From Candidatus Limosilactobacillus intestinigallinarum (GTDB lineage: Bacteria > Bacillota > Bacilli > Lactobacillales > Lactobacillaceae): 64,000 nucleotides of DNA. Every line of letters begins with the position of its first letter. The first letter of the stretch is position 1. The notes below the pieces were generated by a model, which worked only from the letters and a program-made list of their open reading frames with translations, ran no database searches and was not told the DNA's origin. Shown piece by piece: positions 5,917-64,000 of the stretch. The stretch covers positions 1-64,000 of the forward strand of contig DXAA01000017.1 of the NCBI GenBank assembly GCA_019117285.1. Reading direction: 5' to 3'. The translations under genes and the position numbers were made by a program.

Positions 5917-5934
5917 AGTAAGGAGGAATTTCAG

Positions 5935-6459: not shown

Positions 6460-6514
6460 GTACTCGTTGCCCTATATAGATATCAAAAGCATCTTCGCTC
6501 CCGGTATCAAAAAT

Positions 6515-6567
6515 TGTGAAACACCCCCATGATTGGACAAAGCAATCCAACCATGGGGGTTCACTTT
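6515..6567 (+). terminator. Terminator after msrA, possibly bidirectional
   Basis: Long imperfect hairpin GTGAA..CCCCCATG-x-TTGG / CCAA-CCATGGGGG-TTCAC. It lies between msrA (plus) and the convergent MerR gene (minus). Confidence 0.7.
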
Positions 6568-6613
6568 ATGACTTCAAATTACGTTACATTCTTTTTGCTC
6601 AGGAAGAGATCTG

Positions 6614-7360: not shown

Positions 7361-7378
7361 AAAAACTCCTTTCTCCTC

Positions 7379-7409
7379 TTGACTGCGTAGTTACTACACA
7401 GTTTATAGT
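7379..7409 (+). promoter_or_regulatory. MerR-type promoter/operator for the SDR gene
   Basis: TTGACT (7379-7384) and TATAGT (7404-7409) are separated by 19 bp. The spacer is a dyad (ACTGCGTAGT-T-ACTACACAGT, 7382-7402). An over-long spacer with a centred dyad is the hallmark of promoters that MerR proteins activate by DNA distortion. Confidence 0.8.
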
Positions 7410-7430
7410 CAAAATATGGAGGCGATATAA

Positions 7431-8183
7431 ATGAATAAAGTAGCTTTAGTAACAGGTGGTTTAAGTGGCATCGGTAAAGGAACTGTTTTTGAATTGGCAA
7501 AGCGTGGTTATCAAATAGTGATCTTCGATATTAGTGATGATAAGGCTGAAGATGTTATTAATCAAGCTATGCAAAACGGTGCAAAAGATTGTGTTTATAA
7601 ACACACTAACCTTTTCTCGTCTGAAGAAATCGCAGAGAGTTTTGATTTTATTGAAGAACACTTTGGAAAACTCGACTGCGCCTTTAATAATGCAGGCTTT
7701 GGTATCTTAAATAAGCCTTTTGGCGATGTCACTGAAGACGAGATGGACAAGCTTTGGGGAATTGACGTCAAAGCGTATATGTTGTGCATGAAGCATGAGA
7801 TTAAGATGATGCAAGAGAATGACTTTGGACGTATTGTTAATAACGCGTCTGGTGCTGGGCTAGTGAGTGTGAAAGGAGGGGCACTTTATGCTGCTGTTAA
7901 GCACGCGGTTGTTGGTGTAACCAAGGGTGCCGCCTTGGACTACGCAACAACAAATATTACCATCAATGCCATAGCACCAGGAACGATAGCGACAGAGCTT
8001 ATTATGCAATATAAAGATAAGCCGTTCTTTAAAGACTGGCTAAAAAGCAATCCGGCTGGTCGATTAGGTAAGCCAAGTGAAATAGGTCGTGTTGTAGCCT
8101 TCCTATTTGAAAAAGATTCGTCTTTTATTAATGGTGTTATTTTGCCAGTTGATAGTGGATACTGTGCGGGTAATTTTAAGTAA
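7431..8183 (+). CDS. Short-chain dehydrogenase/reductase
   Basis: A 250-residue classical SDR: TGGLSGIGKG nucleotide-binding loop near the N-terminus, NNAG in the central sheet, NNASG serine region and YAAVK catalytic Tyr-Lys. The C-terminal PVDSGYCAGNF end is typical of SDRs of 250 residues. The acidic residue in VIFDISDD at the end of strand 2 suggests NAD preference. Substrate unknown. AT-rich and paired with the divergent MerR gene, so the pair looks like a small transferred, ligand-induced module. Confidence 0.9.
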   Translation: MNKVALVTGGLSGIGKGTVFELAKRGYQIVIFDISDDKAEDVINQAMQNGAKDCVYKHTNLFSSEEIAESFDFIEEHFGKLDCAFNNAGFGILNKPFGDVTEDEMDKLWGIDVKAYMLCMKHEIKMMQENDFGRIVNNASGAGLVSVKGGALYAAVKHAVVGVTKGAALDYATTNITINAIAPGTIATELIMQYKDKPFFKDWLKSNPAGRLGKPSEIGRVVAFLFEKDSSFINGVILPVDSGYCAGNFK

Positions 8184-49368: not shown

Positions 49369-51024
49369 ATGGCACGTGGAATCAAGATGAAGACCTTTGT
49401 GACTAAGAAGATGGCCAAGGCCCAGCAAGATGAGGCTACCCAGCACGCCCAAAAGATCAGGGAACACAAACGGGCACTGATTGCCAGGCACCAAGCAAAC
49501 CAGCCGCAGTCGAAAGCGACGACCAAAGTAACGTCACATGATGGTGACAGCCACGAGACGCAGAAGCTCCGTCAGCAAATCAGCCGGCTGGAACGGGAAG
49601 GGCAACAGGCGCAGGCGGCCAGCCAACGCCGAATCAAACAGCTGGTGCGCCGCTATCGAAAGCTAAAGCAGGATAACCGCGACTTGCGCCAGGCAACCGA
49701 ACGAAGGGCTGCGGTATTAGAGGAACAACAGCGGCAGAATGACCGGGCGGCCACGGCCCTGATGAAGGAGTACGTCGCCCTGGCCGGGTGGCAACGGATC
49801 TTCGCCGACCTGGAAATTGACCCCTTCGCGGGGGAAAGCGCTCAGGCACAGTTGAATCGGCAGGCCCAGGAGCTGCAGACGGCACAAGTGGTGATGTTTC
49901 ATCTGCTGGCCCTGGCCTGGCAGCGGGCGGCAGCCAACCAGCAACGGGCCCACCAGTATGACCGACTGAGGAGCCAATATGATCGTCTCCAGGCCCGGTT
50001 TGACCACCTGCAGAAGAGCTATCAGACCCAATCTGATGAACTCCATCAGCTGAAACAGCGGGTACAACGGGAAGAACACGACATGGAAGCTGCTAAACGG
50101 CGGATGCGTGACCGCTACTTGAACGGCCGCCGGTTGGACAATGCCTTTCACATCCTGTTTGACCACCTGGACGTGGCCACCGTTCAGCGATACGGCCCGC
50201 TCGTTCCCCTGCTGGAGAAGATGAGGGCCACGTTTGCCACTGCCACCCGGCGCAATGACCGCCATCCCTTTGTCTATGGGTACTTTATCCAGCAAAACGG
50301 TCGGCCATACATTGGCGATCGTGCGGGGCACCACCTGCGGCCCCTCACGCTGACTAAGGACAATCACGACCTACAACCGGGGATGGCGATCAAGGCCCAG
50401 CGCGTTGACCGATATCATTATTATGTCGCCGCCACGATGCCGTGGGTCAATGACCTCTTCCGCTACCTGGACGATCACGGGGCCTTCCAGCCCAACCGGC
50501 TGGTGCCGACCACCGGGACGGTCAAGCTGAGTACCTTGCTCAGCGATGGCCCCAGCAACACCGCCGGCAAGCCTAAGGAGCGGGTAGTGATGGGGCGGCT
50601 GGTGGCGGTTGCCAGCCGGACCTTCGTTGCGGGCCCCAAGGCGGTGAACGACCAGCCCATCCCGGCCCCCGGAAAGCGGGCTGCCATGGAGCGGGTAACC
50701 ATCGTCAACCCGGACAAGATTGCCTGGCTATACGCGCAACGCCTCCTGTTGATCGGCAACCAGAAGATCGCACCACTGGTCGTTCAACTGCGGAAGTATG
50801 TTGATCTGACGGTGATGGATGCCTACGAGGACTCGTTGGGCCTGATCTTCACGAAGATTGCGGCGGCTGACTACGTCTTCGTTCTTCTGGGTTCGGTCCC
50901 CCATGCGCTGACGGATTACCTGAAGGCCCATCCGGAATATGCCAGCAAGGTCCAGTACTTCTACCGGGCGGATGCCAACGAGGCGGTCCGCCGGCTCAAC
51001 TACCTGTATATGAATCGTGGTTGA
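49369..51024 (+). CDS. LexA-boxed coiled-coil protein with DUF2325-like C-terminal domain
   Basis: A 551-residue protein. Residues about 60-255 are long Gln/Arg-rich coiled coil, split near 130-165 by a non-coil patch. A middle domain (about 260-400) contains HPFVYGYFIQQNGRPYIGDR. The last 95 residues (LLLIGNQKIAPLVVQLRKYV, AADYVFVLLGSVPHAL, VQYFYRADANEAVRRL) resemble DUF2325, a Rossmann-like domain whose members usually detect or hold a nucleotide-like ligand. The promoter carries a LexA-type box, so it should be induced by DNA damage. Function unknown; the coil suggests a scaffold. Confidence 0.8.
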   Translation: MARGIKMKTFVTKKMAKAQQDEATQHAQKIREHKRALIARHQANQPQSKATTKVTSHDGDSHETQKLRQQISRLEREGQQAQAASQRRIKQLVRRYRKLKQDNRDLRQATERRAAVLEEQQRQNDRAATALMKEYVALAGWQRIFADLEIDPFAGESAQAQLNRQAQELQTAQVVMFHLLALAWQRAAANQQRAHQYDRLRSQYDRLQARFDHLQKSYQTQSDELHQLKQRVQREEHDMEAAKRRMRDRYLNGRRLDNAFHILFDHLDVATVQRYGPLVPLLEKMRATFATATRRNDRHPFVYGYFIQQNGRPYIGDRAGHHLRPLTLTKDNHDLQPGMAIKAQRVDRYHYYVAATMPWVNDLFRYLDDHGAFQPNRLVPTTGTVKLSTLLSDGPSNTAGKPKERVVMGRLVAVASRTFVAGPKAVNDQPIPAPGKRAAMERVTIVNPDKIAWLYAQRLLLIGNQKIAPLVVQLRKYVDLTVMDAYEDSLGLIFTKIAAADYVFVLLGSVPHALTDYLKAHPEYASKVQYFYRADANEAVRRLNYLYMNRG

Positions 51025-51090
51025 GGATCGTCATGATATAATCAGACCGGATAATCTACTGCTGGATTGATAGAAAGAAGGCGAGTAAGC

Positions 51091-52224
51091 ATGCTAGATA
51101 TCTTGGACTATATGGAGCAAAAACTGGTTCGAAATGCGGACTTTTGGCAATTTGCCGATGAACATCTCCAATCACCGACGACCTTCAGGGGTGTTTCCTT
51201 CATCTCGTCGATCAAATTCATCGAACGGTACCTCTTACCCCGTTACCAGTCAGTAACTCTGGTTCTCGGCCTGAGTGACAACGGTACTGCTTCCATTGGG
51301 CAGCGCTTGACGCAGCTGACCGAGCGAAACGAGTTTGTCAAATACGGCTACGAGCACCGGGACAGTGAATTCACCAAGCGGCTCTTGGATGGGACACTGA
51401 AGTTATACTTCACGAAGAAGGAACTAATTCACACCAAACTATACCTGATCACCAATGATCGTGACTATGTCTCGTTTGCCGGCTCAATGAACCTTACCGA
51501 AGCGGCGCTCCATCATAACCTGGAGCAACTGGATAGCGACTATGGTCAGCAGACGGCCCCACTCTACCAGTGTCATCAGCAGATGTTTGAAGACAACCTC
51601 GCTCACGCCGCCACCTACCTGGATGCCAAGAAGATGGCCGGCTTTATCAAGGCGACAAACGAGGAACAGCTCCAGATCAATGTCTACACCGACGCGGTTG
51701 ATATGCTGGCCAACAAGGATCAGGCGGGCAAGGACGTGGTGGTTCTCCCCGCCGAAGAGATCAAGCAGTACAAGGATAACTACCGCTCTGACGAGAAACT
51801 GCAGAAGCTCTCGGCCCAAGAAAAGCTAAGTGTGGCCCAGACGGTGAAGCTGTTCGGGGATGCGGGATATAAGAAGCGCCAGCTCGATAACGTCGGTAAG
51901 GAACTCTACAATTTGACCCAGGTTGTCAAGCATGTCTCCCGCGATGATGGACCATCAGGAAAAATCGAACACGAGGAGGACCTCTACCCCAAGCCGGTGC
52001 TCTTCTACAATAGTGGTCAATTATTTGAAGCGCCACGGGTGGGGGATAACGTTAAATCGACACTGATCGAGTCGCATCTCGCCGGGGATGATCTGAAAGA
52101 GCAGTTGCAGCTATTTAGCGACATTGCCCACGAGTACGACAACTATAAGGAGGTCGGCGAAGGCTGGCAGGCCTGTGACTTCATATTAAAGTGGGCAAGG
52201 AAACACGTTCTTTTAAGGACGTGA
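51091..52224 (+). CDS. Phospholipase D-like (HKD) domain protein
   Basis: A 377-residue protein. A single HKD half-site is seen at HTKLYLITNDRDYVSFAGSMN (H, K, then GSxN). PLD-family nucleases work as dimers, so one motif can suffice. The N-terminal part (SIKFIERYLLPRYQSV) fits the first strand-helix unit of PLD proteins found with helicases and restriction-like systems. A helical C-terminal part (about 190-377) is unknown. Start at 51091 with AAGGCGAG. A TGATATAAT at about 51035 gives it a separate promoter. Confidence 0.78.
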   Translation: MLDILDYMEQKLVRNADFWQFADEHLQSPTTFRGVSFISSIKFIERYLLPRYQSVTLVLGLSDNGTASIGQRLTQLTERNEFVKYGYEHRDSEFTKRLLDGTLKLYFTKKELIHTKLYLITNDRDYVSFAGSMNLTEAALHHNLEQLDSDYGQQTAPLYQCHQQMFEDNLAHAATYLDAKKMAGFIKATNEEQLQINVYTDAVDMLANKDQAGKDVVVLPAEEIKQYKDNYRSDEKLQKLSAQEKLSVAQTVKLFGDAGYKKRQLDNVGKELYNLTQVVKHVSRDDGPSGKIEHEEDLYPKPVLFYNSGQLFEAPRVGDNVKSTLIESHLAGDDLKEQLQLFSDIAHEYDNYKEVGEGWQACDFILKWARKHVLLRT

Positions 52225-52252
52225 TGAATTGTCTATTTTTTTAGCTTTGCGT

Positions 52253-52279
52253 CGAACGTATGTTTAAAAATGATATAAT
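52253..52279 (+). promoter_or_regulatory. SOS promoter with LexA-type box upstream of tnpB
   Basis: CGAAC-GTAT-GTTTA (52253-52266) followed by extended -10 TGA-TATAAT (52274-52279). Box and -10 are nearly the same as at 49308. The first gene downstream is the transposon's tnpB; the likely original target is the gene at 53647. Confidence 0.65.
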
Positions 52280-52350
52280 ATACTTAACAAAAGGATTAGC
52301 ATTAGGACATTAATTAGCTTTGTTGACTGACTGTTAATGAAGGAATAGTG

Positions 52351-53520
52351 GTGAAAATGGCGCAGATTATAAAGGGTATCAAACTTCGTCTATATCCCAA
52401 TGCTCAGCAAAGGGAACAGTTGTGGCAAATGTTTGGTAACAATCGCTTTGTTTGGAACCAGATGTTGGCGATGGCAAAGGAACGTTATCAAAACAACCCC
52501 AGCAGTCACTTCGTCAATGAATACGGTATGAATTATTTACTGAAAGTTTTGAAGCAAGAGTATCCTTTCTTACGGGAAAGTGATGCCACTAGTCTTCAGG
52601 TGGTTGACCATAATCTTGCTCAAGCGTTTAAGATGCTCTTTAGGCACCAGGGTGGTTATCCACGTTTCAAATCACGTCGTTCCACCCGGCAAGCTTATAC
52701 GGGACGGTCAATTTGCCGGGTACTTGCTAAGCGGCGAGTGAGGTTGCCTAAGCTGGGCAGCATTCGGACCAGTAAAACAGCACTATTGGCTAATGGCAAA
52801 ATCAAGTGCTATACGGTTTGCCTCGAGCCCACTGGCCGTTATTATCTGTCATTACAAGTGGCAGTTGCGGCTCCCAAGCATTTAAGTAAGACGGGGAAAA
52901 CGGTCGGGATTGATGTGGGGATCACCGATCTAGCCATTAGTTCTGATGGGATTAAGTACGGCACCTTTAACGCTAGATGGGCTGAGAAACAAGCAACAAA
53001 GTGGCAAAGTAAGTATGCCAAACGGAAATATCAAGCGATGGTTGCCATTCGTCAATGGAACCATAACCACAAAACTGTGAAGAAAGAACTAAGCGATTAC
53101 CGGAATTGGCAACGAGCCCGACAACAAAAAGCCCGCTACCAAGCCAAGATAGCGAACCAACGAAAAGATTATTTGCATAAATTAACGACGTCCTTAGTTA
53201 AGCAATACGACGTAATTGTTATTGAAGATTTGAAAACCAAGAATCTCCGGGAAAATCATTGCTTAGCTAAAGCCATTGCAAATGCCAGTTGGTATCAATT
53301 CCGGACCATGTTGGCATATAAATGTGCCTGGTATGGTAAACGTTTGGTGGTAGTTAAACCAAACTATACTAGCCAAATTTGCAGTCATTGTGGTTACCAT
53401 AGCGGACCAAAACCGTTACAAATTCGTGAATGGACGTGTCCAAGTTGTGGTACCCACCACGACCGGGATATTAATGCGGCAGTTAATATCCTGCATCAAG
53501 GATTGAAAGCCGTGGGCTAG
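52351..53520 (+). CDS. tnpB: RNA-guided nuclease TnpB (IS200/IS605 OrfB)
   Basis: A 389-residue TnpB with an intact nuclease: RuvC Asp in [13 protein letters not shown] (about 188), Glu in VIEDLKTKN (about 292), last Asp in [12 protein letters not shown] (about 373), and a zinc ribbon CSHCG..CPSCG between them. The N-terminal [22 protein letters not shown] is the usual opening. TnpB cuts DNA using an omega RNA from the right end and helps keep the element in place. Start is one of the closely spaced GTG/GTG/ATG codons at 52348, 52351 and 52357. Confidence 0.92.
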
Positions 53521-53639
53521 GGACTAGCCATGGTAAAAGAGTGGTGTTCTGTAAGTTGGGTATCCTGAATACAGGTGTAACATCCTAAATACTACTCCAT
53601 GTTCCCAGAAGCTCGGTCATTAATGGCCGAGTAGTTCAC
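53500..53639 (+). ncRNA. Candidate omega RNA (right-end guide RNA)
   Basis: TnpB guide RNAs overlap the 3' end of tnpB and end at the element's right border. The region has the terminal hairpin 53612-53631 and a conserved-looking TTCAC end; the guide would then begin at about 53640. Its 5' end cannot be seen. Confidence 0.5.
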
Positions 53640-53646
53640 CTTCACC

Positions 53647-54414
53647 ATGAACCGGCGGGAGGGGGACAGCAAGTCCCAATTCTCCCTCAAGCCGGAGATC
53701 ATGCGCCGGCTGTGGTACCTGAGTTTTGAATCGACCTTTGCCGGGGATGTCGAGGAGCGGGAGGCCAAGCTGAATAACCTGCTCAGTCGGGCCAATGACC
53801 AGCTCTACCGTTACTGTCAGGTTGAACTTGCCAGGTTCTTTGCCGATGTCTCACCAGCCACCGAGCAGGCAATCGAGCGGGACTTCCTGTACCCGATCAA
53901 GTTTGTCCTGAAACAGGCGATGGAGCAATTCGGGATGTTTGATCAGGTTGAAGGTTATTTCAAGGATAATTATGATTACTCCCTGTTTGTCGGCCGTAAC
54001 GATTGGACAATGCTGATCAACCAGGCCGAGGTCGGGACGGACATCATGTTCGTCAAGCAGGACGGGCGGCTGAAGGCCCAGATCAATAAGCAGCTCTTCA
54101 ACAAGGTCTCCGACAACACGGCCCGGAACAGTGGGTCGATGCTGATGGATCGCTATTTCCAGTACCTGCCCCGGAAGTATCACATCAGTTATCAACACAC
54201 CAGTACCGGCTTTATCGTCGACGTTCAAAACTTTGACCGGTGGCTGGATAGCGATGCCCTGCAGCAGCGTTATGACAGTAGTAAGACCGCCCAGGATGCC
54301 CGCAAGGTCGATACCGATGCCAAGATGAGTGAGGCGATCGCTCGGCTCACGGCCATGCAGGAAAAACAGAACCAGCATCATCACCTGTTCGGCTGGTTAC
54401 ACCGGAATAAGTAG
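53647..54414 (+). CDS. Unknown 255-residue protein, possibly 5'-truncated by the TnpB element
   Basis: A frame from ATG 53647, 7 nt after the element's presumed end, with no ribosome site upstream. The product (MNRREGDSKSQFSLKPEIM, LYPIKFVLKQAMEQFGMFDQVEGYFKD) is soluble and mainly helical at first, then mixed, with a His-rich end (NQHHHLFGWLHRNK). GC-rich, like the chromosome. No family recognised. The LexA-type promoter on the far side of the element may have been its own; if so, the true start codon was separated or lost. Confidence 0.65.
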   Translation: MNRREGDSKSQFSLKPEIMRRLWYLSFESTFAGDVEEREAKLNNLLSRANDQLYRYCQVELARFFADVSPATEQAIERDFLYPIKFVLKQAMEQFGMFDQVEGYFKDNYDYSLFVGRNDWTMLINQAEVGTDIMFVKQDGRLKAQINKQLFNKVSDNTARNSGSMLMDRYFQYLPRKYHISYQHTSTGFIVDVQNFDRWLDSDALQQRYDSSKTAQDARKVDTDAKMSEAIARLTAMQEKQNQHHHLFGWLHRNK

Positions 54415-54421
54415 CAAAATC

Positions 54422-54450
54422 GGCTAAGATCCATCATCCGGATCCTAGCC
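54422..54450. terminator. Hairpin between convergent genes
   Basis: GGCTA-a-GATCC / GGATC-c-TAGCC arms; lies between the gene at 53647 (plus) and RNase HI (minus). Confidence 0.55.
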
Positions 54451-54559
54451 TATTCAGGTACTTCGATGTAAAAAGCGCCGCCCAAAATGATATAATACAA
54501 ACGGCAATCAAAGATTTGACGTCAAAAGCAACCCTTGCCGTATTATCTAAGTGACGGGC

Positions 54560-54949
54560 CTATTCGAGAGTGCGCAGCGCCTGGTTGGCCAGGTGGTGGG
54601 CCCCGTGATTCTGCTGGTCGGGGATCCACTGGGTGACTACGGTCGTGAACTGGCCGATCAGCTGGTTGAGTGCGGCCAGCTCACTCTGGTAATGTTTTGT
54701 ATAATTTTTCCCGATGGCGTCACTGAGGACCCGGCTGTCGGTGTAGAATAGCACTGTTTGCTGGGGGCCGAAGCGATCCAGCAGGGATTGAAAGCCAAAC
54801 CGGGCGGCGGCGAATTCGCCGTGGTGGTTATCGGCGCACGCCATAGTGGCGGTCAGCTGGTACTGCTGGTGGTTGGCAATGATGAGGGCGCCGAGCCCGG
54901 TGGGACCGGGACTACCCTTGCTGGCGGCGTCAGTGTACAGTTTTAACAT
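54560..54949 (-). CDS. RNase HI-like protein
   Basis: A 129-residue RNase H fold: LYTDAASKGSPGPTGLG (first Asp), NHHGEFAAARFG (Glu) and FYTDSRVLSDAIG (third acidic). The fourth acidic position, usually Asp in the ADxLA motif, reads HHLA here (NHGAHHLANQAL), so the metal site is changed. It removes RNA from RNA-DNA hybrids if active. RBS GAGG. Divergent from ebsA. Confidence 0.82.
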   Translation of the reverse strand: MLKLYTDAASKGSPGPTGLGALIIANHQQYQLTATMACADNHHGEFAAARFGFQSLLDRFGPQQTVLFYTDSRVLSDAIGKNYTKHYQSELAALNQLIGQFTTVVTQWIPDQQNHGAHHLANQALRTLE

Positions 54950-54986
54950 TAATAATTACCTCACTTTGAAAGGAAGAGTCTATCTT

Positions 54987-55394
54987 ATGGAGGAAGAGAC
55001 CCGATATTTTTATCAGCCAGACCTGACCGGCACGATCATCAGCTGGTGCTGGACATTCCTGCTGTTTTTGGCTGGCCTGATCGTCTGGCTGGAGATCACC
55101 CATTTTCAGTGGGTGACGGCCCTGTTCTTTGCGGCCTTTGCCATTTTAACATTTTTGGAGATCAAGCGGCGGACGGTGGTGATCACGCCGACTAAGCTGG
55201 TCTTCAGCCGCCTGCTCCAGCGGGACTACCTGATGATCCCGCTGGCCGACATTCGCCAGCCGCGCTTCACCAAGCACACGGTGACGATGACGGTCAACGG
55301 TGAGGTCCTCAACTTCACCTTCAGTCAGAAGGCCATCAAGCGCCTGCAACTGGCCCTGAACAACCAACTGGAGGGGACCAACCGTGACCATTAG
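54987..55394 (+). CDS. ebsA: EbsA-family membrane protein
   Basis: A 135-residue protein with two helices (about 18-60) and a C-terminal PH-like beta domain (VVITPTKLVFSRLLQRDYLMIPLADI). Start at 54987 (MEEETRYFYQPDLTG) with AAAGGAAG; earlier in-frame codons overlap the RNase HI gene. EbsA occurs upstream of lspA in lactobacilli and enterococci. It overlaps lspA by 11 bp. Confidence 0.82.
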   Translation: MEEETRYFYQPDLTGTIISWCWTFLLFLAGLIVWLEITHFQWVTALFFAAFAILTFLEIKRRTVVITPTKLVFSRLLQRDYLMIPLADIRQPRFTKHTVTMTVNGEVLNFTFSQKAIKRLQLALNNQLEGTNRDH

Positions 55395-55830
55395 CATTAG
55401 CCTGTTGCTCGTCGTGGCCCTGGTAATCATCGACCAGCTGGTAAAACACTGGGTGGCGACTACGATCACCGTGGGGACCAGCCACGTGGTCATCCCCGGG
55501 CTGCTGGCGCTGACTGACCTTCGCAACCACGGGGCGGCCTGGAGTATCCTCCAGGGCCAGCAGTGGTTCTTCGCCGTCGTCTCGGTGGTGGCAATCGCCG
55601 TGGTCGGCTACCTGATGTTTCGCTGGCGTCACCAGCCGGGCCTGATGATTGGCCTGGCCCTGATCCTGGCCGGGACCATCGGCAACTTCATCGACCGCCT
55701 GGCTCAGGGCTACGTGGTTGACATGTTCGAACTACTCTTCATCAATTTCCCGGTGTTCAACGTTGCGGACGCCTGCCTGACCATCGGGGTGTTGATCTTG
55801 ATTATTGCAATTCTACGGGAGGATGATTGA
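55384..55830 (+). CDS. lspA: Lipoprotein signal peptidase
   Basis: A 148-residue aspartic protease with four helices. It cleaves signal peptides of prolipoproteins after diacylglyceryl transfer. Catalytic Asp in GNFIDRLAQGYVVDMFEL and FNVADACLTIG; also LTDLRNHGAAWSIL. GTG start inside ebsA. Followed 3 nt later by rluD. Confidence 0.95.
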   Translation: MTISISLLLVVALVIIDQLVKHWVATTITVGTSHVVIPGLLALTDLRNHGAAWSILQGQQWFFAVVSVVAIAVVGYLMFRWRHQPGLMIGLALILAGTIGNFIDRLAQGYVVDMFELLFINFPVFNVADACLTIGVLILIIAILREDD

Positions 55831-55833
55831 CGG

Positions 55834-56745
55834 ATGGATGAACCAGTACGCCTGGTGATTGACAACAACCTGACGGGGCGGATCGACAAACAGCTCGGCC
55901 ACCACTTCAGTCAATACTCGCGCTCCCAGCTCCAGCGTTGGATTGAGGACGGCCACGTCCAGGTCAACGGCCAGACCGTCAAACCCAAGTATAAGCTGGC
56001 GGCGGGGGACGTGGTTACCATCACCCCCGAGCAGCCGAAGAAGATCGACCTGGTACCGGAGAATATCCCTCTCGACATCGTTTACGAGGACGACGACGTG
56101 ATCGTGGTCAACAAGCCCCAGGGGATGGTTGTCCACCCGGCACCGGGGCATCCCGACCACACCCTGGTCAACGCCCTCCTCTATCACTCGCCGCTGTCGA
56201 CGATCAACGGTGAGTTCCGGCCCGGGATCGTCCACCGGATCGACAAGGACACCTCGGGCCTCTTGATGGTGGCCAAGAACGACATGGCCCATCGGTCGCT
56301 GGCCGCCCAGCTCAAGGCCAAGACCAACGAGCGGGAGTACGTGGCCCTGGTCCACGGGGTGATCAAGGAGGACCGGGGGACGATCGACGCGCCGCTGGGC
56401 CGGTCGCCCAAGGACCGCAAGAAGCAGGCGGTCGTCGCTGGTGGCCGGCACGCGGTCACCCACTTCAAGGTCCTCAGGCGCTACCGCCACTATACCCTGG
56501 TGTCCTGCCGCCTGGAGACCGGGCGAACCCACCAGATCCGGGTCCACATGAAGTACATCGGCCACCCGCTGGCCGGCGATCCCCTCTACGGGCCGCGTAA
56601 GACCCTGCCGGGCAAGGGCCAGTACCTGCATGCCCGCTTGCTGGGCTTCAAGCACCCGCGGACCGGGGAGCAGTTGACCTTCACGGCCCCGCTCCCACCG
56701 TATTTCCAGCAGATGCTAGACAAACTCGATAAGACCGATAAGTAA
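55834..56745 (+). CDS. rluD: RluD-family 23S rRNA pseudouridine synthase
   Basis: A 303-residue protein: S4 RNA-binding domain (about 14-75: SRSQLQRWIEDGHVQVNG), catalytic HRIDKDTSGLLMVAK with the Asp nucleophile, and RTHQIRVHMKYIGHPLAGD. lspA-rluD followed by pyrimidine genes is the Bacillus order; here the pyrimidine operon is reduced to the carA-carB remnant downstream. Confidence 0.95.
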   Translation: MDEPVRLVIDNNLTGRIDKQLGHHFSQYSRSQLQRWIEDGHVQVNGQTVKPKYKLAAGDVVTITPEQPKKIDLVPENIPLDIVYEDDDVIVVNKPQGMVVHPAPGHPDHTLVNALLYHSPLSTINGEFRPGIVHRIDKDTSGLLMVAKNDMAHRSLAAQLKAKTNEREYVALVHGVIKEDRGTIDAPLGRSPKDRKKQAVVAGGRHAVTHFKVLRRYRHYTLVSCRLETGRTHQIRVHMKYIGHPLAGDPLYGPRKTLPGKGQYLHARLLGFKHPRTGEQLTFTAPLPPYFQQMLDKLDKTDK

Positions 56746-56812
56746 TTCCTTGAAATTGTGCCCGGGTACGGCATAATAGGACATGAGAACGTAATTAAGG
56801 GTGAGTGATAAA

Positions 56813-57895
56813 GTGACAGCACGCTACCTAATATTTGAAGATGGCACGATTTTCGCCGGCGAGGGCTTCGGGGCCCCCGCGGTAACCTTTGGCGAGGTGG
56901 TTTTCAACACCAGCATGACCGGTTACCAGGAGATCATCACCAACCAGATCTACAATAACCAGATCGTGGTGTTTTCCCAGCCGAACATCGGCAGCTACGG
57001 CATCCAGCGCAACATCTATGAGACAATTGTCCCGACGATCAAGGGGGTCGTCGTGCGTTCGCTGGCCAACGTGGGCGCCAACAACTCCCGCCAGCAGACC
57101 CTCGACCGCTACCTCAAGCAGATGAACATCCCCGGGATCACCAACATCGACACCCGGGCGGTGATCCACAAACTGCGGGACGCCGGCAAGCCACTGAAGG
57201 GGAGCATCGTGCCCGTGCCGGACGACCACGCCTTCGACCAGCTTCACGCCACGGTCCTGACCAACCAGCAGGTCGCCCAGGTGGCCACCCCCAAGCCCTA
57301 CCCGAATCCGGGCGTTGGAATGAGCGTGGTCGTCGTTGACTTCGGGTTGAAGAACGGGGTTCTGCGGGAGCTCAGTCGGCGCAAATGCAACGTCACGGTC
57401 CTGCCCTACACTGCCACGGCCGAGGAGATTCTCCGCCTGGATCCGGATGGGGTGGTCCTGTCCAGCGGTCCCGGGGACCCGAACAGTATCAAGCGGTCGG
57501 TCCTGGAGATGATCCAGCAGATCCAGACCAAGGTGCCGCTGTTTGCGATCGGCCTTGGTCACGAGTTATTTGCGATCGCCAACGGGGCGACGGTCCAGCG
57601 GGACCCGGTCGAACACCACGGGATGAACCACCCGCTCAAGGAGGTCATCACCGACCACATCGTCTACGCCAACCAGGGGGGCGGTTACCGGATCGACCCG
57701 AATACCGTCGACCGGTCCCAGCTGTTCATCACCTACGTTGACCTGATCGACGACAGTATCCAGGGCCTCCGCCACCGCCACTACCCGGCTTTCTCAGTCC
57801 AGTTCTTCCCGGATGGGGCGCCGGGTCCGGACGAGACGGACGGCCTGTTTGACGAATTCCTCGACATCATGAAGCGGAAGGAGGCGCGGCACTGA
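56813..57895 (+). CDS. CarA-like protein without glutaminase active site
   Basis: A 360-residue homologue of carbamoyl-phosphate synthase small subunit. The N-terminal half is well kept (YLIFEDGTIFAGEGFG, GEVVFNTSMTGYQEI, IPGITNIDTRAV). The glutamine amidotransferase half keeps VVVVDFGLKNGVLREL and SSGPGDPNS but not the catalytic residues. The nucleophile Cys is Gly247 (FAIGLGHEL for GICLGHQ) and HPE of the triad is FPD (Phe332, Asp334). The SQNHGY element is NQGGGY. It cannot release ammonia from glutamine. GTG start at 56813 is preferred over 56801 by RBS spacing. Its stop overlaps the carB-like start (TGATG). Confidence 0.9.
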   Translation: MTARYLIFEDGTIFAGEGFGAPAVTFGEVVFNTSMTGYQEIITNQIYNNQIVVFSQPNIGSYGIQRNIYETIVPTIKGVVVRSLANVGANNSRQQTLDRYLKQMNIPGITNIDTRAVIHKLRDAGKPLKGSIVPVPDDHAFDQLHATVLTNQQVAQVATPKPYPNPGVGMSVVVVDFGLKNGVLRELSRRKCNVTVLPYTATAEEILRLDPDGVVLSSGPGDPNSIKRSVLEMIQQIQTKVPLFAIGLGHELFAIANGATVQRDPVEHHGMNHPLKEVITDHIVYANQGGGYRIDPNTVDRSQLFITYVDLIDDSIQGLRHRHYPAFSVQFFPDGAPGPDETDGLFDEFLDIMKRKEARH

Positions 57896-60414
57896 TGACG
57901 AAACAAACCATCAAATCGGTTCTGGTGATCGGGGCCGGGGCCAACGACGTCCAGCACGGTGACGAGCTGGACGCGGCGACCTTCCAGATCACCACGGCCT
58001 TCAAGAAGCTCGGCATCAAGACCATCCTGGCCGACGACAACCCGTTCTCGGTCAGCCTGGAGAACCGGTCGGCGGTCGACCACGCCTGCATCGGGCCGCT
58101 GAACGTTGAGCACCTGGTGCAGCTGATTGAACGCTACCACCCGCACGCCATCCTGCCGACGGTCGGCAACCAGCACGCCTTCGAGCTGACCCAGGAACTC
58201 CTCGAGAAGGGAATCATTCAGAAGCGTGACATCCAGCTGCTCGGGGTTCCCGAGGCGACGGTGCGCCAGGTGAACAACCCGGTCCTGCTCAGTCGGACCC
58301 TCCACAAGATGGACGCGCCGATGAAGTCGGTGGTCACCGTCAGTAACTACCAGGACGCCCTGGAGGAGGCCCAGAAGTTGGGCTACCCGGTGATCATCCG
58401 CTCCGTTTTGCCGAAGAGCAACAGTACCCGGCGGATCGTCCACGACCAGCGGGAACTGGCGACGGCGGTCCAGAGCTGCCTCAGCCAGTCGCGGGCCGAA
58501 CAGGTCCTGGTTCAACAGAGTCTGGCCGGTTATAAGGAAATTGAGGTGATGGTCCAGCGGGACGCCTCGGGGACGATGATGATGCTCTCGATGGTCGAGG
58601 ACATGGACCCGATCGGCATTCACGCCGGGGACTCGGTGGCCTTCAACCCGCCACAGACCTTGCTGGACCGGCAGATTCAAGACATGCGGGACACCGCCTT
58701 TGCGATCACCCGGAAGCTGCGGATTGTCGGCATCAACCACGTCCAGTTCGCCCTGGACCCGGACAACGACAAGTTCTACGTCATCAAGAACAGTCCCTAC
58801 TTCGACCGGATGACCTCCTTTGTCGCCCAGTCGACTGGTTATCCGATCGCGGCGGTCTGCGCCCAGCTTTACGCCGGCAAACTTCTCCGTGACATTGACC
58901 TGGGGGATAACTACGTCCACCACGCCGCCCTGGTCGAGCCGACGATGGACCACATCGCGGCCCGGGTCCCGGTCTGGGGCTTTACCGAGATTCCCGAGGC
59001 CAGCCGCCTGCTGGGGACGGAGAAGAAGTCAGTTGGGACCGTCTTTGGGGTCGGTCGGAGCACGATCGAGGCCCTCTTCAAGGCGATCGAGTCCCGTTAC
59101 CGGGAGCCGGCCGACTTTCACCTGGCCGCCCAGCAGAAGCTGAGTGATGACGAGCTGATCGTCAAACTGGTCCACCCCGAGGCCGGCCGCCTCTTCGTCC
59201 TGATTGAGGCGATGAACCGCGGCTACTCCGTCGATGAGCTGGCGGAGATGACCAAGATCGACCCCTTCTACTTCGACCAGATCAACAAGATGCGCCTCCT
59301 GATTAAGGAGGTCGTCGACAACCCGGGCAAGGAGCCGGTCTTGATTCGGGCCAAGAGCTACGGGCTGAGCAATCAGCTGATCGCCCGTCTCTGGAAGACA
59401 ACCCCGAGTCGGATCTACCAGATGCTGGTTGACCACCAGATCACCAGCAAGTACAAGGAGATCGAACCGTCCGCCGGCGAGTTCGACCAGCACACCAATA
59501 GTTTCTACTCGGCCCTGGAGGATGAGAACGAGGGGACCAAGACGGCCCAGCCCAGTGCCATGATCATCGGCACCGGGGGCTTGCGACTCGGCCTCAGCAA
59601 TTCGGGAGACTACTTCGTGGCGGCGATGATGCGTCAGCTGCGCCACGAGGGCTACCACACGGTGATCGTCGACACCAACCCGAGCTCGGTGGCTCTGGTC
59701 CGGGAGCTGAGCGACAAGCGCTACCTGGAGCCGCCGACGCCGGAGAACGTCCTCCAGCTCCTCAAAGTCGAACAGCCCCAACTCCTGTTCGTGCCGGCCT
59801 CCTACACCCAGCTGTTGGCCGGGCTGAAGGCGATCGACCTGCAGTGCCGGTTGATCGTCCTGCCCGATGACCGCCTGCCGAAGTTCGACAGCCGGGCTGG
59901 CAAGCTGGTCGCCTTCAACTACATCTTCGACGGCGACTACGCCTACCCACTGGGGACGACGACCAACCTGCTCTCCCCAGAGCAGCTGAACTACCAGTCG
60001 ACGGCGATCCGCTACCCGGCGGAGGTGCCGGACTATGCCTTCCAGTCGCTGAGTGACCAGGCCAGCAAGACCGTCATGGACCAGAATGATCCGGGATTGT
60101 ACCAGGTCATCTTCGTCAAGGCGGGGGATGAGTACCGGCAGATCGGGGTTCAGCCGCTGCCGCTGACCGAGGTCGCCTTCCTGTCGAAGGTCCTCCAGGT
60201 CAGCCTGCCGGGGGTCTTCACCCAGCTGCTGACCGGGAGCCTGGCCAGCGAGACGGTGATCGATTCCCTGAAGCAGACCAGCGACCCCGGCGTGGTGACC
60301 TACCGGGCGACCTTCCCGTTCAAGGCCCTCCACGTCCAGAACGGCTTACCAGCCGTCAACAAGATCATCGGGGCGCGGATGCAATTCTTGACGCCACCGT
60401 TGCAAAATGAATAG
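57895..60414 (+). CDS. CarB-like protein, shortened and without ATP-grasp metal ligands
   Basis: An 839-residue relative of the carbamoyl-phosphate synthase large subunit (usually about 1,060). The first half aligns throughout (SVLVIGAGANDVQHGDELDAA, MVEDMDPIGIHAGDS, HVQFALDPDNDKFYVIKN). The Gly-rich ATP loop is replaced (RSVLPKSNSTRRIV), and the EVNPR metal motif reads KNSPY (Lys298, Ser300). A second pre-ATP-grasp unit (about 555-650) and a relict second ATP-grasp C-lobe (IGVQPLPLTEVAFLSK) follow. Most of the second ATP-grasp and all of the MGS-like regulatory domain are missing. The frame is intact over 2.5 kb, so it is not simply a pseudogene. Confidence 0.85.
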   Translation: MTKQTIKSVLVIGAGANDVQHGDELDAATFQITTAFKKLGIKTILADDNPFSVSLENRSAVDHACIGPLNVEHLVQLIERYHPHAILPTVGNQHAFELTQELLEKGIIQKRDIQLLGVPEATVRQVNNPVLLSRTLHKMDAPMKSVVTVSNYQDALEEAQKLGYPVIIRSVLPKSNSTRRIVHDQRELATAVQSCLSQSRAEQVLVQQSLAGYKEIEVMVQRDASGTMMMLSMVEDMDPIGIHAGDSVAFNPPQTLLDRQIQDMRDTAFAITRKLRIVGINHVQFALDPDNDKFYVIKNSPYFDRMTSFVAQSTGYPIAAVCAQLYAGKLLRDIDLGDNYVHHAALVEPTMDHIAARVPVWGFTEIPEASRLLGTEKKSVGTVFGVGRSTIEALFKAIESRYREPADFHLAAQQKLSDDELIVKLVHPEAGRLFVLIEAMNRGYSVDELAEMTKIDPFYFDQINKMRLLIKEVVDNPGKEPVLIRAKSYGLSNQLIARLWKTTPSRIYQMLVDHQITSKYKEIEPSAGEFDQHTNSFYSALEDENEGTKTAQPSAMIIGTGGLRLGLSNSGDYFVAAMMRQLRHEGYHTVIVDTNPSSVALVRELSDKRYLEPPTPENVLQLLKVEQPQLLFVPASYTQLLAGLKAIDLQCRLIVLPDDRLPKFDSRAGKLVAFNYIFDGDYAYPLGTTTNLLSPEQLNYQSTAIRYPAEVPDYAFQSLSDQASKTVMDQNDPGLYQVIFVKAGDEYRQIGVQPLPLTEVAFLSKVLQVSLPGVFTQLLTGSLASETVIDSLKQTSDPGVVTYRATFPFKALHVQNGLPAVNKIIGARMQFLTPPLQNE

Positions 60415-60420
60415 AATAGA

Positions 60421-60447
60421 AAGCATTCCAGTACGGGATGCTTTTTT
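60421..60447 (+). terminator. Terminator after the carAB-like pair
   Basis: AAGCATTCC / GGGATGCTT arms with a 5-nt loop, then TTTTTT. Confidence 0.8.
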
Positions 60448-60465
60448 GATTTGGGAGGGAAAATA

Positions 60466-61308
60466 ATGGTACGGATTGCCATCAGCAGTGATAATCACCT
60501 GGACGTCAACCAGGTCGACCCGGCCGCGGCCCTGACGCTGCAGGCCACCTACCTACGTGATCATGGGGTGCAGTACTACTTCTACGGTGGGGACCTCTTT
60601 AACGACTTCAGCCGGACCCGGCGCTACATGGCCGCGCTGCGGGACCGACTGGCTGCCACCACCCGGGTCTACTACATCGCTGGTAACCATGACCTCCTCC
60701 AACACGCCCCCTACGGCCTGGTCGAGGGGATGCCCGATCCGGGTTACCTCCACAATCGCTATGTCGACCTGCCGGGAACCGCTTGGCGGGTGGTCGGCAA
60801 CAACGGTTGGTACGACTACTCCTTTTCGACCTACCGGGACGATCCGGCGGCGGTCCGCCAGTGGAAACGGGTCTACTGGCTGGACAGCGAGATCGACCAG
60901 CCCGGCGACGACCAGGAGCGCATGACCACCGTCCTCGACCAGGTAAAATCCCAGTTGACGCTGTCCCGGCAGGCGGACAAACGGGTGCTCTTCCTGACCC
61001 ATTTTGCCCCTCGGCACGAACTCCTGGCCCCGCACCCGGCCGCCATCCACACCGCCCGGCAGGAGCGTTTCTACCAGATGATCAACGCCATGATGGGCAG
61101 TGATCGCCTCGGCGACCTCCTGGAGGGAGTCGGCAACGTCAAGGAGGTTTTCTACGGGCACCTCCACGGCCACCATCCAGCCCTGACTCGCCATGGGGTC
61201 ACCTACCTGAACCAGGCGGTCGGCGTCCGTAACAAACGGATCGACGAGTGGCAGGCCGCCGATTTCGCCGCCCAGTGGCAAGCCCGCCTGCGGATCATCG
61301 ATCTATAA
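60466..61308 (+). CDS. Calcineurin-like metallophosphoesterase
   Basis: A 280-residue cytoplasmic enzyme with all metal motifs: SSDNHLD, GGDLFND, AGNHDLL, THFAPRH and GHLHGH. The layout matches phosphoesterases of lactobacilli related to YkuE/YfcE-type proteins; substrate unknown. ATG at 60466 with GGGAGGG. Confidence 0.88.
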   Translation: MVRIAISSDNHLDVNQVDPAAALTLQATYLRDHGVQYYFYGGDLFNDFSRTRRYMAALRDRLAATTRVYYIAGNHDLLQHAPYGLVEGMPDPGYLHNRYVDLPGTAWRVVGNNGWYDYSFSTYRDDPAAVRQWKRVYWLDSEIDQPGDDQERMTTVLDQVKSQLTLSRQADKRVLFLTHFAPRHELLAPHPAAIHTARQERFYQMINAMMGSDRLGDLLEGVGNVKEVFYGHLHGHHPALTRHGVTYLNQAVGVRNKRIDEWQAADFAAQWQARLRIIDL

Positions 61309-61360
61309 GCCTGATTTCGCGGTATAATGGGGCCGAGAATGTTTGGGAGGGGATCGTATT

Positions 61361-62422
61361 TTGAATAAGCAACGAATGGGAATCCTATTGGCCACGGGGG
61401 TCATCGCTCTGACCCTGGCCGGCTGTGGGAACCAGACCAGCAGCCAGCAGAGGAGCAGCAGTTCTTCTACCAGCCTGATCGCCAAGAAGTCCAGCACCAA
61501 GGTCAGTGCGGCGGGGATGTCGCCCCAGCAGGCGGTTAGTCTGGTTACGGCCTACGCCGGTAACCGCTACGGTGGGCAGTGGGCCCGGGTGGCCAAGCAG
61601 GCCCAAAAGTCCCAGTTAAGGGTCAACCTCTACCCGACCAGCCGTTACCAGCTCAGTGACAACGGCCAGGGGATGGCCTATGCGGTGACCGCCAATGGCC
61701 AGGAAACCGGCCTGGTCTACACGCTTACCAAGGATGATGCGGTGGTCCTCTACCGCGATGCCAAGACCGGGCAGCCGGCCAAGAAGCTGGCGACGGTCAC
61801 CAAGCCAGCGATGGCCCGCTACATCAACCGGCACGGCCAGGGGGACCTGGTCAATCAGCTGGCCCGGGGTGCCCAAGTGGTCGACAAGAGCGGGACCACC
61901 AGCGCAACCAGCGGCAGCGCGGCCAGTGCCGGGAGCACCACCCATGGCGATAGCGCCACCGGCAAGTACGGCAACAAGGGGCCGTTTGCGGTACCGGCTG
62001 ACATGCAGGGGACCTGGTACTCGGATGATGACGATGACGAGTCGACGATGACCATTGATGGCCACAGCATGACCATCGACGGTGATCCCGTCAAGCTCTA
62101 TCACCAGGATCCCCAGTTTGCCCAGGACAATGTCCACCCCAGTGACGACCAGGTTCAGGCTACTAAAGAGTGGGGCCGGACCCAACTGCTCCACAACGAT
62201 GACGGTACCTGGTTAAACGTTCAGGGCTGGTTCCAGGGGGCCGGCGATGGCGAATCCTACATGACCAAGACCGAGACCATCGACGGCAAGCCGGTCAAGG
62301 TGCTGGTGGTCGCCGGCGGGGCCGGGCCATGGGTCGAGGCCGTCTACTACCCGACCAAGTCCCTGGCCCAACAGCAGGCGGACCAGAAGTACGACGACCT
62401 GCACTACGAGGATGATAACTAA
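61361..62422 (+). CDS. Surface lipoprotein
   Basis: A 353-residue lipoprotein. TTG start at 61361 with GGGAGGGG; signal peptide ends in the lipobox LAGC. A Ser/Gln-rich linker follows, then a domain (about 50-175: MSPQQAVSLVTAYAGNRYGG, LYPTSRYQLSDNGQGMAYAV, RYINRHGQGDLVNQLA) like lipoproteins common in Limosilactobacillus. A second, Asp-rich domain (about 200-353) may bind cations. Processed by LspA encoded about 6 kb upstream. Exact role unknown. Confidence 0.8.
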   Translation: MNKQRMGILLATGVIALTLAGCGNQTSSQQRSSSSSTSLIAKKSSTKVSAAGMSPQQAVSLVTAYAGNRYGGQWARVAKQAQKSQLRVNLYPTSRYQLSDNGQGMAYAVTANGQETGLVYTLTKDDAVVLYRDAKTGQPAKKLATVTKPAMARYINRHGQGDLVNQLARGAQVVDKSGTTSATSGSAASAGSTTHGDSATGKYGNKGPFAVPADMQGTWYSDDDDDESTMTIDGHSMTIDGDPVKLYHQDPQFAQDNVHPSDDQVQATKEWGRTQLLHNDDGTWLNVQGWFQGAGDGESYMTKTETIDGKPVKVLVVAGGAGPWVEAVYYPTKSLAQQQADQKYDDLHYEDDN

Positions 62423-62436
62423 GGAGGATACTGACC

Positions 62437-62541
62437 ATGCGAAATCCATTGCAAAGAAACCAAAAGTCGACGATCGTGGCCCTGGTGACCGGGGCCCTCA
62501 TCTGGCCACTCTGCCTTTACCTGAAGAGCCGCCGGAAGTAG
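62437..62541 (+). CDS. 34-residue membrane miniprotein
   Basis: ATG after GGAGGATACTGACC opens a frame with a polar start (MRNPLQRNQKST), one hydrophobic helix (IVALVTGALIWPLCLYL) and a basic end (KSRRK). It follows the lipoprotein gene by 14 nt. Function unknown; supported by the strong ribosome site. Confidence 0.55.
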   Translation: MRNPLQRNQKSTIVALVTGALIWPLCLYLKSRRK

Positions 62542-62639
62542 TCGGTGGGTGAGTACAAATTAGTTTAAATTTTTTTCAAAAAGTCCTTGCCATTTAACGG
62601 GAATCTTGCTATCATTATTTCTGTTGTCAAGGACGACAT

Positions 62640-62711
62640 GCGGAAGTAGTTCAGTGGTAGAACATCACCTTGCCATGGTGGGGGTCGCGGGTTCGAATCC
62701 CGTCTTCCGCT
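62640..62711 (+). tRNA. tRNA-Gly (anticodon GCC)
   Basis: Acceptor GCGGAAG / CTTCCGC, discriminator T, anticodon loop TTGCCAT, T-arm GGGTTCGAATCCC. No encoded CCA. Confidence 0.95.
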
Positions 62712-62721
62712 TAACCATGAT

Positions 62722-62793
62722 GACCCGTTAGTCAAGTGGTTAAGACACCAGCCTTTCACGCTGGTATCGTGGGTTCAAATCCCGCACGGGTCA
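62722..62793 (+). tRNA. tRNA-Glu (anticodon TTC)
   Basis: Acceptor GACCCGT / ACGGGTC, anticodon stem CCAGC / GCTGG with loop CTTTCAC, T-arm GGGTTCAAATCCC. No encoded CCA. Confidence 0.93.
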
Positions 62794-62800
62794 CTCTTTT

Positions 62801-62873
62801 GGGGAATTAGCTCAGCTGGGAGAGCACCTGCTTTGCAAGCAGGAGGTCATCGGTTCGATTCCGTTATTCTCCA
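62801..62873 (+). tRNA. tRNA-Ala (anticodon TGC)
   Basis: Acceptor GGGGAAT / ATTCTCC, anticodon stem CCTGC / GCAGG with loop TTTGCAA, discriminator A. Confidence 0.95.
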
Positions 62874-62905
62874 TTGGCAATTATTATTGCCGAACTGAAT
62901 ATGTT

Positions 62906-62981
62906 GGCGGTATTGGTGAAGTTTGGTTAACACACCGGTTTGTGGGTCCGGCACGCGTGGGTTCAAATCCCACATACCGCC
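62906..62981 (+). tRNA. tRNA-His (anticodon GTG)
   Basis: Eight-bp acceptor GGCGGTAT / ATACCGCC with the extra G-1 opposite C73, the tRNA-His identity pair; anticodon loop TTGTGGG. Confidence 0.93.
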
Positions 62982-62988
62982 CTCTGTT

Positions 62989-63026
62989 AAAACAGGGATA
63001 GACGTTTTGTCTATCCCTGTTTTTTC
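62989..63026 (+). terminator. Terminator of the tRNA cluster
   Basis: AACAGGGATAGAC / GTCTATCCCTGTT perfect arms followed by TTTTC, right after tRNA-His. Confidence 0.88.
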
Positions 63027-63099
63027 ATGTGATTAGAGAAATCCTGCGTATATATTATAATAAGGGAAACGTTATCGTCTGAGAAGGGGAGGAAACACC

Positions 63100-64000
63100 A
63101 TGCGCTTTTTGCATACCGCCGATTGGCACATCGGCAAGAGTCTGAACGGCTTTGACCTGCTGGATGACCAGCAGGCCGTCTTTGAACAGATCGAGGGAAT
63201 CGCCAAAAAGAAGGCGGTCGACGCGGTGGTGATCGCCGGCGACCTCTACGACCGCAGTATCCCCAGTGAGGCGGCGGTCCGCCAGCTCAACGCCGAACTG
63301 GCCCAACTGAATCTGACCGACCACTTTCCGGTCCTGGCGATCAGTGGAAACCACGACTCGGCCACCCGCTTGGGGACGGGGGCCAACTGGTTCGCTCAGA
63401 CCGGCCTCTACCTCAATACCCGGTTGGACAGTGCCTTTGAACCGGTGACGATCGGCGACACCGAGTTCTTCCTCCTGCCATTCTTTGGCATCCAGGCGGT
63501 CCGCAACCACTTCGGCGACGATTCGATCCGCGACGTCAACACGGCGATGGCCCGGATCGTTGCGGCAATGCAGGAGCGCTTCACCCCGGGCAAGCACCAT
63601 GTCCTGGTGGCCCACTTCTTCGCGGCCGGGAGCCAGCGGACGGCGGACTCGGAGACCCTGATCGAGGTTGGGGGGCTGAGCGCGGTCGCCACGACCACCC
63701 TGGCCCCCTTTGACTACGTTGCCTTGGGCCACCTCCACAACCGCAACGCCCTCCACGATGACCGGGTCCGTTACAGCGGGTCGCCGATGAAGTTTTCGGT
63801 CTCCGAAGCCGACCAGGAGAAGGGGGTCTGGATCGTTGACACCGACCCCTTCAAGGCAGAATGGGTCCCACTGGCCCCGGCTCATGACATCCACCGGCTG
63901 ACCGGGTCCTTCGCCGACCTGGTCGCCAACCGCGAGCAGCACCCCCGGGATGACTTCTATGACATCGAGCTGACCGACCACGAGCGAATCCCGGACGTCC
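63100..64000 (+). CDS. sbcD: Exonuclease SbcD (MRE11-type), cut by the window end
   Basis: ATG at 63100 with GGGGAGG opens a frame that stays open to the window edge (300 codons). Phosphoesterase motifs are in order: LHTADWHIGKSLNG, VIAGDLYDR, ISGNHDSATRL, LGHLHNRNAL, then YSGSPMKFSVSEA typical of SbcD. It forms, with SbcC, a nuclease that opens hairpins and processes DNA ends; sbcC is expected just beyond the window. Confidence 0.93.
   Translation, partial: MRFLHTADWHIGKSLNGFDLLDDQQAVFEQIEGIAKKKAVDAVVIAGDLYDRSIPSEAAVRQLNAELAQLNLTDHFPVLAISGNHDSATRLGTGANWFAQTGLYLNTRLDSAFEPVTIGDTEFFLLPFFGIQAVRNHFGDDSIRDVNTAMARIVAAMQERFTPGKHHVLVAHFFAAGSQRTADSETLIEVGGLSAVATTTLAPFDYVALGHLHNRNALHDDRVRYSGSPMKFSVSEADQEKGVWIVDTDPFKAEWVPLAPAHDIHRLTGSFADLVANREQHPRDDFYDIELTDHERIPDV

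Follow-up and report, generated by a model that had tools for sequence, protein, structure and literature searches.

Catalytically dead carbamoyl-phosphate synthase subunits are conserved in Lactobacillaceae and are usually encoded with PyrR

In this study, which was based on a 64,000-nucleotide stretch of Candidatus Limosilactobacillus intestinigallinarum (the whole of which is referred to as the window) and on the comparative genomics of its relatives, we examined two coupled genes, carA* and carB*, that resemble the genes for the small and the large subunit of carbamoyl-phosphate synthase (CPSase), the entry enzyme of pyrimidine and arginine synthesis. The two genes were confirmed to be a conserved pseudoenzyme pair, the catalytic residues of which have been lost while purifying selection continues. 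The window comes from a metagenome-assembled genome of Limosilactobacillus that is 66.9% complete, and its CarB* is 90% identical to that of L. pontis. The function to which we give an even chance, judging from sequence and gene order, is that of a non-catalytic complex acting as a regulatory partner of PyrR.

An earlier note on this DNA had described a long CarB-like frame that was coupled to a CarA-like gene and in which both ATP-grasp sites were destroyed, and the analysis of the residues, which were numbered according to E. coli CarAB (L186), bore this out. The carB* frame is uninterrupted and its ATG overlaps the stop codon of the CarA-like open reading frame (ORF). In the first synthetase site, E299 is replaced by K298 (VIKNSPY for VIEMNPR), N301 by S, R303 by Y and N283 by H, and both R129 and the Gly-rich loop, already reported as gone, are lost; R169, E215, H243, Q285 and R306 are retained. 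None of the 18 tabulated residues of the second site was retained (17 second-site residues and E604), including E841, N843 and R845, and the VQPLP stretch that had been pointed out in this relict is indeed present and corresponds by eye to the EVNPR of E. coli. Against the TIGR01369 model, CarB* scored 491.9 bits, which is below the equivalog cut-off of 1027, and its alignment ended at model position 635 of 1052, near protein residue 633; CarB* therefore lacks the C-terminal regulatory domain, as had been claimed, as well as most of the second synthetase half. The dead glutaminase of CarA*, in which Cys269 has become Gly251 and His353 is replaced, was absent from the earlier note. CarA* nevertheless passed TIGR01368 (345.6 bits, cut-off 307.35), which means that this cut-off is blind to catalysis.

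The earlier note had proposed a search for the pair in other Lactobacillaceae, and the pair proved not to be confined to one genome. The CarB* query was matched in all 50 of the Limosilactobacillus genomes searched, 48 of which have an open frame of 817-882 aa that is matched to residue 818 or beyond; of the remaining two, G015 is cut by a contig end and G009 is in several frames. One stop was counted inside the matched range in five of the 48 (G007, G011, G029, G030 and G035), where the open frames span 817-845 aa, and CarA* was found in 49 of the 50 genomes. On contig C4 of G009 (L075, L179), the CarB of the dead pair and the canonical CarB are both in several frames, which has the look of an assembly error. 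The family search, in which the C-terminal 274 aa of CarB* were compared with 397 genomes from 40 genera (genera are given below as arbitrary codes, g1 being Limosilactobacillus), indicated shortened CarB forms in many other genera of the Lactobacillaceae. The residue comparison used 88 short pairs, which came from 23 genus codes, together with 32 full-length pairs, and the counts were made without L005 (a duplicate), L040 (partial) and L075 and L179 (the broken frames of G009). The CarA residue at position 269 was Gly in 88 of the 88 short-pair rows and in three of the 32 full-length pairs, L161 (g21), L162 (g37) and L164 (g10), and Cys in the other 29. The synthetase sites of these three are also degraded, in L161 the second site only. 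The L161 locus (4906-8067) encodes a full-length CarB paralogue beside the C-to-G CarA, with a first site that is intact except for N283 to D and a dead second site; going by its residues, it may possibly be a bicarbonate-dependent ATPase intermediate.

For 15 of the 20 genomes that gave no match in the family search, the PyrR region was fetched, and 13 of these regions held a C-to-G CarA. It was accompanied by a short CarB in 11 cases (789-800 aa in g35, g4 and g8; 659-665 aa in g9), by a full-length dead CarB of 1064 aa in one (g14, G099) and by broken frames in another (g22, G405), and no CarAB was found within the fetched PyrR-region stretch of G206 and G373. At the g14 locus (L204), CarA reads IGLGFA, E299 of the CarB is replaced by K, and rluD-pyrR and a 427-aa ORF precede the pair. 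Altogether, dead pairs were found in 30 genus codes of the family. In an order-level search of 395 genomes, at least 38 matches cover the truncated C-terminus, those listed all being in the family of the window; two candidates at most were scored per genome, so that divergent short forms outside the family could escape, and the closer look left aside 19 genomes from family f4 whose best E values were about 1e-80 to 1e-96.

The purifying selection for which a test had been suggested was evident wherever it could be computed. Using the Nei-Gojobori method on carB*, the synonymous rate dS was defined in 16 of 29 comparisons, the other 13 being saturated, and in these 16 the ratio of nonsynonymous to synonymous rates (dN/dS) was 0.014-0.098 with a median of 0.036, which is not near 1; in the seven comparisons with dS below 1 it was 0.021-0.098. 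Of the 29 comparisons, 28 gave a higher dN from residue 553 on than within residues 1-400. Within the main clade, which comprises 86 rows after L156 and L157 (divergent 802-aa forms in which E299 is kept) were also set aside, the substitutions are largely uniform: C269 is G in 86 rows, E299 is K in 78 or R in eight, Q273 is E in 83, N283 is H in 79 and H353 is F in 72, and R129 is retained in a single row. Other positions are mostly retained, namely R/K169 in 86, E215 in 83, H243 in 82, Q285 in 76 and R306 in 67 of the rows. The divergent forms of 790-802 aa (g4, g8 and g35) keep E299 and have lost N283, Q285, N301 and the Gly loop. These residue losses are more than chance, given that related ones recur throughout the family and that dN/dS lies far under 1.

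As for its origin, the earlier note regarded the pair as a pseudoenzyme complex that remained from the pyrimidine operon, and this agrees well with what the site holds elsewhere. The ORF list of the window confirms the placement after lspA-rluD; RluD lies upstream at every one of the 88 loci except one in g28, and an RqcH/FbpA homologue lies downstream of the pair in 48 of them. In g11, g12 and g30, the same lspA-rluD site is occupied by an intact pyr operon whose CarAB is canonical; in Bacillus, too, the pyr operon normally lies there. In g10, g14 and g21, an ORF of 427-457 aa, permease-like by eye in g10 and g21, separates the full-length dead pair from PyrR. In the CarB tree, all 47 dead rows used formed one clade (Shimodaira-Hasegawa-like approximate likelihood ratio support, SH-aLRT, 96), in which the full-length forms branch first and three rows are long-branched. 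The CarA tree set five of the dead rows apart, and an approximately unbiased (AU) test did not reject a single clade (p = 0.21). The simplest history would be that the dead pairs arose once, from the CarAB of the old pyr operon, which then decayed step by step.

In most other genera, pyrR stands between rluD and carA*, which it does not in the window. PyrR was directly 5' of carA* in 47 of the 47 short-pair loci outside g1 (37 loci) and g3 (4 loci), at a distance of 2-126 nt, and the gap between carA* and carB* was 20 nt or less in 86 of 86. In g1, PyrR was found elsewhere in 48 of the 50 genomes (one partial) and in neither G000 nor G021, both of which are incomplete; at eight of the ten relocated loci examined, a PurA-like ORF, named by eye, lay within four ORFs of it. 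The PyrR tree was too weak to date this move. In six of six g3 genomes, PyrR and PyrB are neighbours. At all three g9 loci, ILVDDVLYTGR has become ILITKVVSKGW or similar in the adjacent PyrR, which has lost the phosphoribosyl pyrophosphate (PRPP) loop and a hairpin and retains DRGHRELPI and GKNVPT. Since DRGHRELPI, which we take to be the RNA-binding face of PyrR, was kept when the PRPP loop was lost, PyrR catalysis appears to be dispensable in g9. The gene for this PyrR paralogue (L213:6585-7058, L214:6031-6510 and L215:6606-7076) overlaps that for the dead CarA, which in turn is followed by a CarB-like gene of about 660 aa; judged by these sequences, the g9 locus is a trio of pseudoenzymes.

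PyrR boxes were searched for in two ways. Rfam gave no PyrR element in positions 50000-64000 of the window or in nine loci that included the intact pyr operon L158, and because it misses the element even there it is uninformative here. A matrix that was built from 21 of our own sites, mostly pyr-operon leaders, placed a PyrR box (CCTTTAAnTTAGTCCnGnGAGGCTAGnAAGG) 5' of pyrR at the dead-pair loci of g10 (L164), g14 (L204), g21 (L161), g22 (L212) and g35 (L201), and a weaker one in g38 (L130, L131 and L142). A PyrR-box-like sequence was also seen 5' of a relocated PyrR of g1 (L198:6683), which suggests that the relocated Limosilactobacillus PyrR may be autoregulated.

The pair is also kept in genomes in which the pathway is reduced, counting CarB over the cut-off of TIGR01369 and PyrB over that of TIGR00670. 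Among 77 dead-pair genomes outside g1, CarB was over the cut-off in 54 and PyrB in 55. No such CarB was found in 22 of the 77; in a 23rd, G287, CarB is split in two frames, and that of G068 is a fragment. Both CarB and PyrB were missing in 21 of the 77, and in 21 of these 21 the pair is preceded by PyrR just upstream on the same strand. In g1, full-length CarB was present in 30 of the 50 genomes and absent from 19 (13 at least 90% complete, six below 90%), four of which, G000 (incomplete), G002, G024 and G039, also have no PyrB over the cut-off. Since it is kept where CarB and PyrB are missing, the pair is not limited to acting on canonical CPSase or on de novo synthesis. This retention makes it less likely that the pair simply senses inorganic carbon on behalf of the biosynthetic operon, and favours a role that would persist where cells are predicted to require pyrimidines, such as a PyrR-dependent control of uptake or salvage.

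Under the PyrR-partner reading, the ancestral CarAB pair of the pyr operon at the lspA-rluD site would have become carA*-carB* early in the Lactobacillaceae, losing, in an order that we infer, glutamine hydrolysis first and afterwards the synthetase sites as well as, in the majority of genera, the allosteric domain; meanwhile, a working pyr operon would have been kept elsewhere or de novo synthesis would have been lost. What was kept would be a heteromeric complex without catalysis, encoded in most genera in one gene cluster with PyrR; retained homology and the gene overlap point to complex formation. A ligand may bind the re-modelled former bicarbonate/ATP site, which in the main clade has the basic K/R299, His283 and His243, and/or the pair may bind PyrR, and the pair would thereby tune how PyrR acts on the RNA leaders of pyrimidine genes. 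Such a PyrR-linked regulation is favoured over a free-standing sensor by the loss of the glutaminase, by the spread of the pair through the family and by its PyrR neighbour. A more specific form, in which PyrR, CarA* and CarB* make up a three-protein RNA-control unit and PyrR receives its metabolic signal, which would be bicarbonate, carbamoyl phosphate, glutamine or a nucleotide, from the dead synthase, seems to us rather doubtful; as the PyrR of g9 has no PRPP loop, all input to such a unit would there come from the dead synthase.

Several observations weigh against a partnership with PyrR. There is no pyrR at the pair site in g1, the window included, or in g3, and the pair is kept; in g37, the dead pair of L162 follows rluD with no pyrR between, and no strong PyrR was found anywhere in the genomes of G281 and G334, in which the presence of the pair was not established. 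Because these groups keep the pair without pyrR on site, gene order at the old operon may be inertia. Moreover, the 1.4 kb 5' of carA* showed no PyrR box in the window or at most other pair loci, those of its genus among them, and none of 86 scored above 15. That the pair is retained without PyrB speaks against its serving de novo synthesis alone. The AlphaFold2 model of CarB*, which was built from 16 rows (the window and 15 related loci, all Limosilactobacillus or Lactobacillus sp.), is weak, with a mean predicted local distance difference test score (pLDDT) of 58.8 and long stretches below 50, and only its global match to CPSase is used. Finally, the link to PyrR2 of L. plantarum presupposes that pyrR2, which is lp_1782 according to the part of PMC7911632 available, lies at the pair site.

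These points lend some weight to a conserved pseudoenzyme complex that has nothing to do with PyrR, for instance a scaffold or sensor in another pathway with a merely historical neighbourhood, which we consider unlikely but the most serious of the rivals: g1, g3 and L162 do without pyrR on site, carB* of g1 is nonetheless under purifying selection, and the pair persists in the 21 genomes that lack CarB and PyrB as well as in G002, G024, G039 and the incomplete G000. However, PyrR is directly upstream in all of those 21 and is kept in nearly every g1 genome, and in g9 the loss of catalysis has affected all three proteins jointly, and they still form one operon. The idea that the pair modulates canonical CPSase directly, for example by dead subunits mixing with CarA or CarB, draws on sequence kinship, on an interface expected by homology and on the many genomes in which a CarB occurs alongside, but is very improbable, as the pair is kept without such a CarB in 19 g1 genomes and 22 others; a pair that is a subunit of canonical CPSase was rejected, because it is retained where CPSase is missing. 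We find it equally hard to believe that the pair still catalyses another reaction, such as that of a ligase or ATPase at the remodelled first site. Five residues of that site are mostly kept and the first site of the full-length L161 is intact but for N283, but position 299 is K or R in every main-clade row, R129 survives in one, the Gly loop has mostly disappeared, Cys269 is Gly and the CarB forms of g9 have shrunk to about 660 aa. Decaying pseudogenes, to which the lost catalytic residues, the faster C-terminal evolution and the frames of G009 (g1) and G405 (g22) might point, have next to no probability given the low dN/dS, the open frames in 48 of 50 g1 genomes and positions that were switched and then fixed; selection rejects this explanation for the family as a whole.

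Positions of the features discussed, as numbered in the window
Feature	Position	Strand	Remark
lspA	55384..55830	+	upstream anchor; ORF list; lspA cluster at 72/88 loci
rluD, pseudouridine synthase	55834..56745	+	anchor directly 5' of the pair; RluD cluster at 87/88 loci, 22/23 genus codes
carA*, CarA-like small subunit, dead glutaminase	56801..57895	+	GTG start 56801, or in-frame GTG 56813
carA* Gly251 codon GGC	57551..57553	+	position of catalytic Cys269 in E. coli CarA
carB*, shortened CarB-like large subunit, 839 aa	57895..60414	+	both ATP-grasp sites dead, allosteric domain absent
carB* Lys298 codon AAG	58786..58788	+	at metal-binding Glu299 of CarB (KNSPY motif)
relict of second synthetase half	59797..60411	+	holds VQPLP at about 60148-60162

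Elsewhere in the window, a 390-aa ORF with a zinc-finger motif (52348-53520) has by eye the look of a TnpB-type transposon nuclease, and four clustered tRNA genes (62640-62981, Rfam) lie 5' of an SbcD-like ORF at 63100. At two of the compared loci, Rfam matched a tetrahydrofolate (THF) riboswitch (RF01831; L112:2003-2103 and L123:2681-2778), and fhs lies there upstream of lspA.

The conversion of a metabolic enzyme into a regulatory protein complex is what these results suggest. They also have a practical side: because CarA* passes a curated CPSase cut-off, genomes that have only the pair may be wrongly credited with carbamoyl-phosphate synthesis, which would concern the 19 of 50 Limosilactobacillus genomes without full-length CarB. 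A dead glutaminase that is retained in the protein is also found in the ammonia-dependent CPS I (human CPS1), the glutaminase domain of which has no Cys; there, however, both synthetase sites are kept, whereas in the pair they are dead too. E. coli CarA-CarB (PDB 1c30/1bxr) is the best match in sequence and fold, and shares with the pair the two-gene operon and the domain order to CarB residue ~633, but the pair differs in the Cys-to-Gly glutaminase, the two dead ATP-grasp sites, the shortened second half and the absence of the allosteric domain. The intact pyr operon of g11, g12 and g30, like that of Bacillus, has lspA-rluD at its 5' side and PyrR as its first gene, and in g11 and g12 an RqcH/FbpA homologue at its 3' side; unlike it, the pair locus has no pyrB, pyrC or other genes of the operon, and its CarAB is dead.

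We found no description of a dead CPSase pair in the open full-text literature, a coverage that largely leaves out subscription journals, and the available parts of PMC8869380, PMC10609543, PMC6022934, PMC11445297 and PMC9963975 hold nothing on it; the part of PMC11445297 available names a 'carbamoyl-phosphate synthase large chain' of L. reuteri without specifying which one. Pseudoenzymes and PyrR attenuation are known already, and in the standard form of the latter RNA binding is favoured by UMP and counteracted by PRPP (PMC6296669, in part); what is apparently undescribed is a family-wide dead CPSase pair that is usually encoded with PyrR. The closest regulatory parallel is PyrR2 of L. plantarum, to which the part of PMC3582564 available, citing Arsene-Ploetze 2006, ascribes an inorganic-carbon control of the pyr operon. 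PyrR2 is separate from the PyrR of the pyr operon, just as most genera here carry a PyrR at the rluD site beside the pair; Limosilactobacillus, with no PyrR at that site, differs. The available parts of PMC3582564 and PMC7911632 do not mention a dead CPSase pair. It may be that the dead pair is the source of the inorganic-carbon response of PyrR2 in L. plantarum, and a family-wide dead copy of CPSase that is usually tied to PyrR makes the link between CO2/bicarbonate and pyrimidine gene control in lactobacilli testable.

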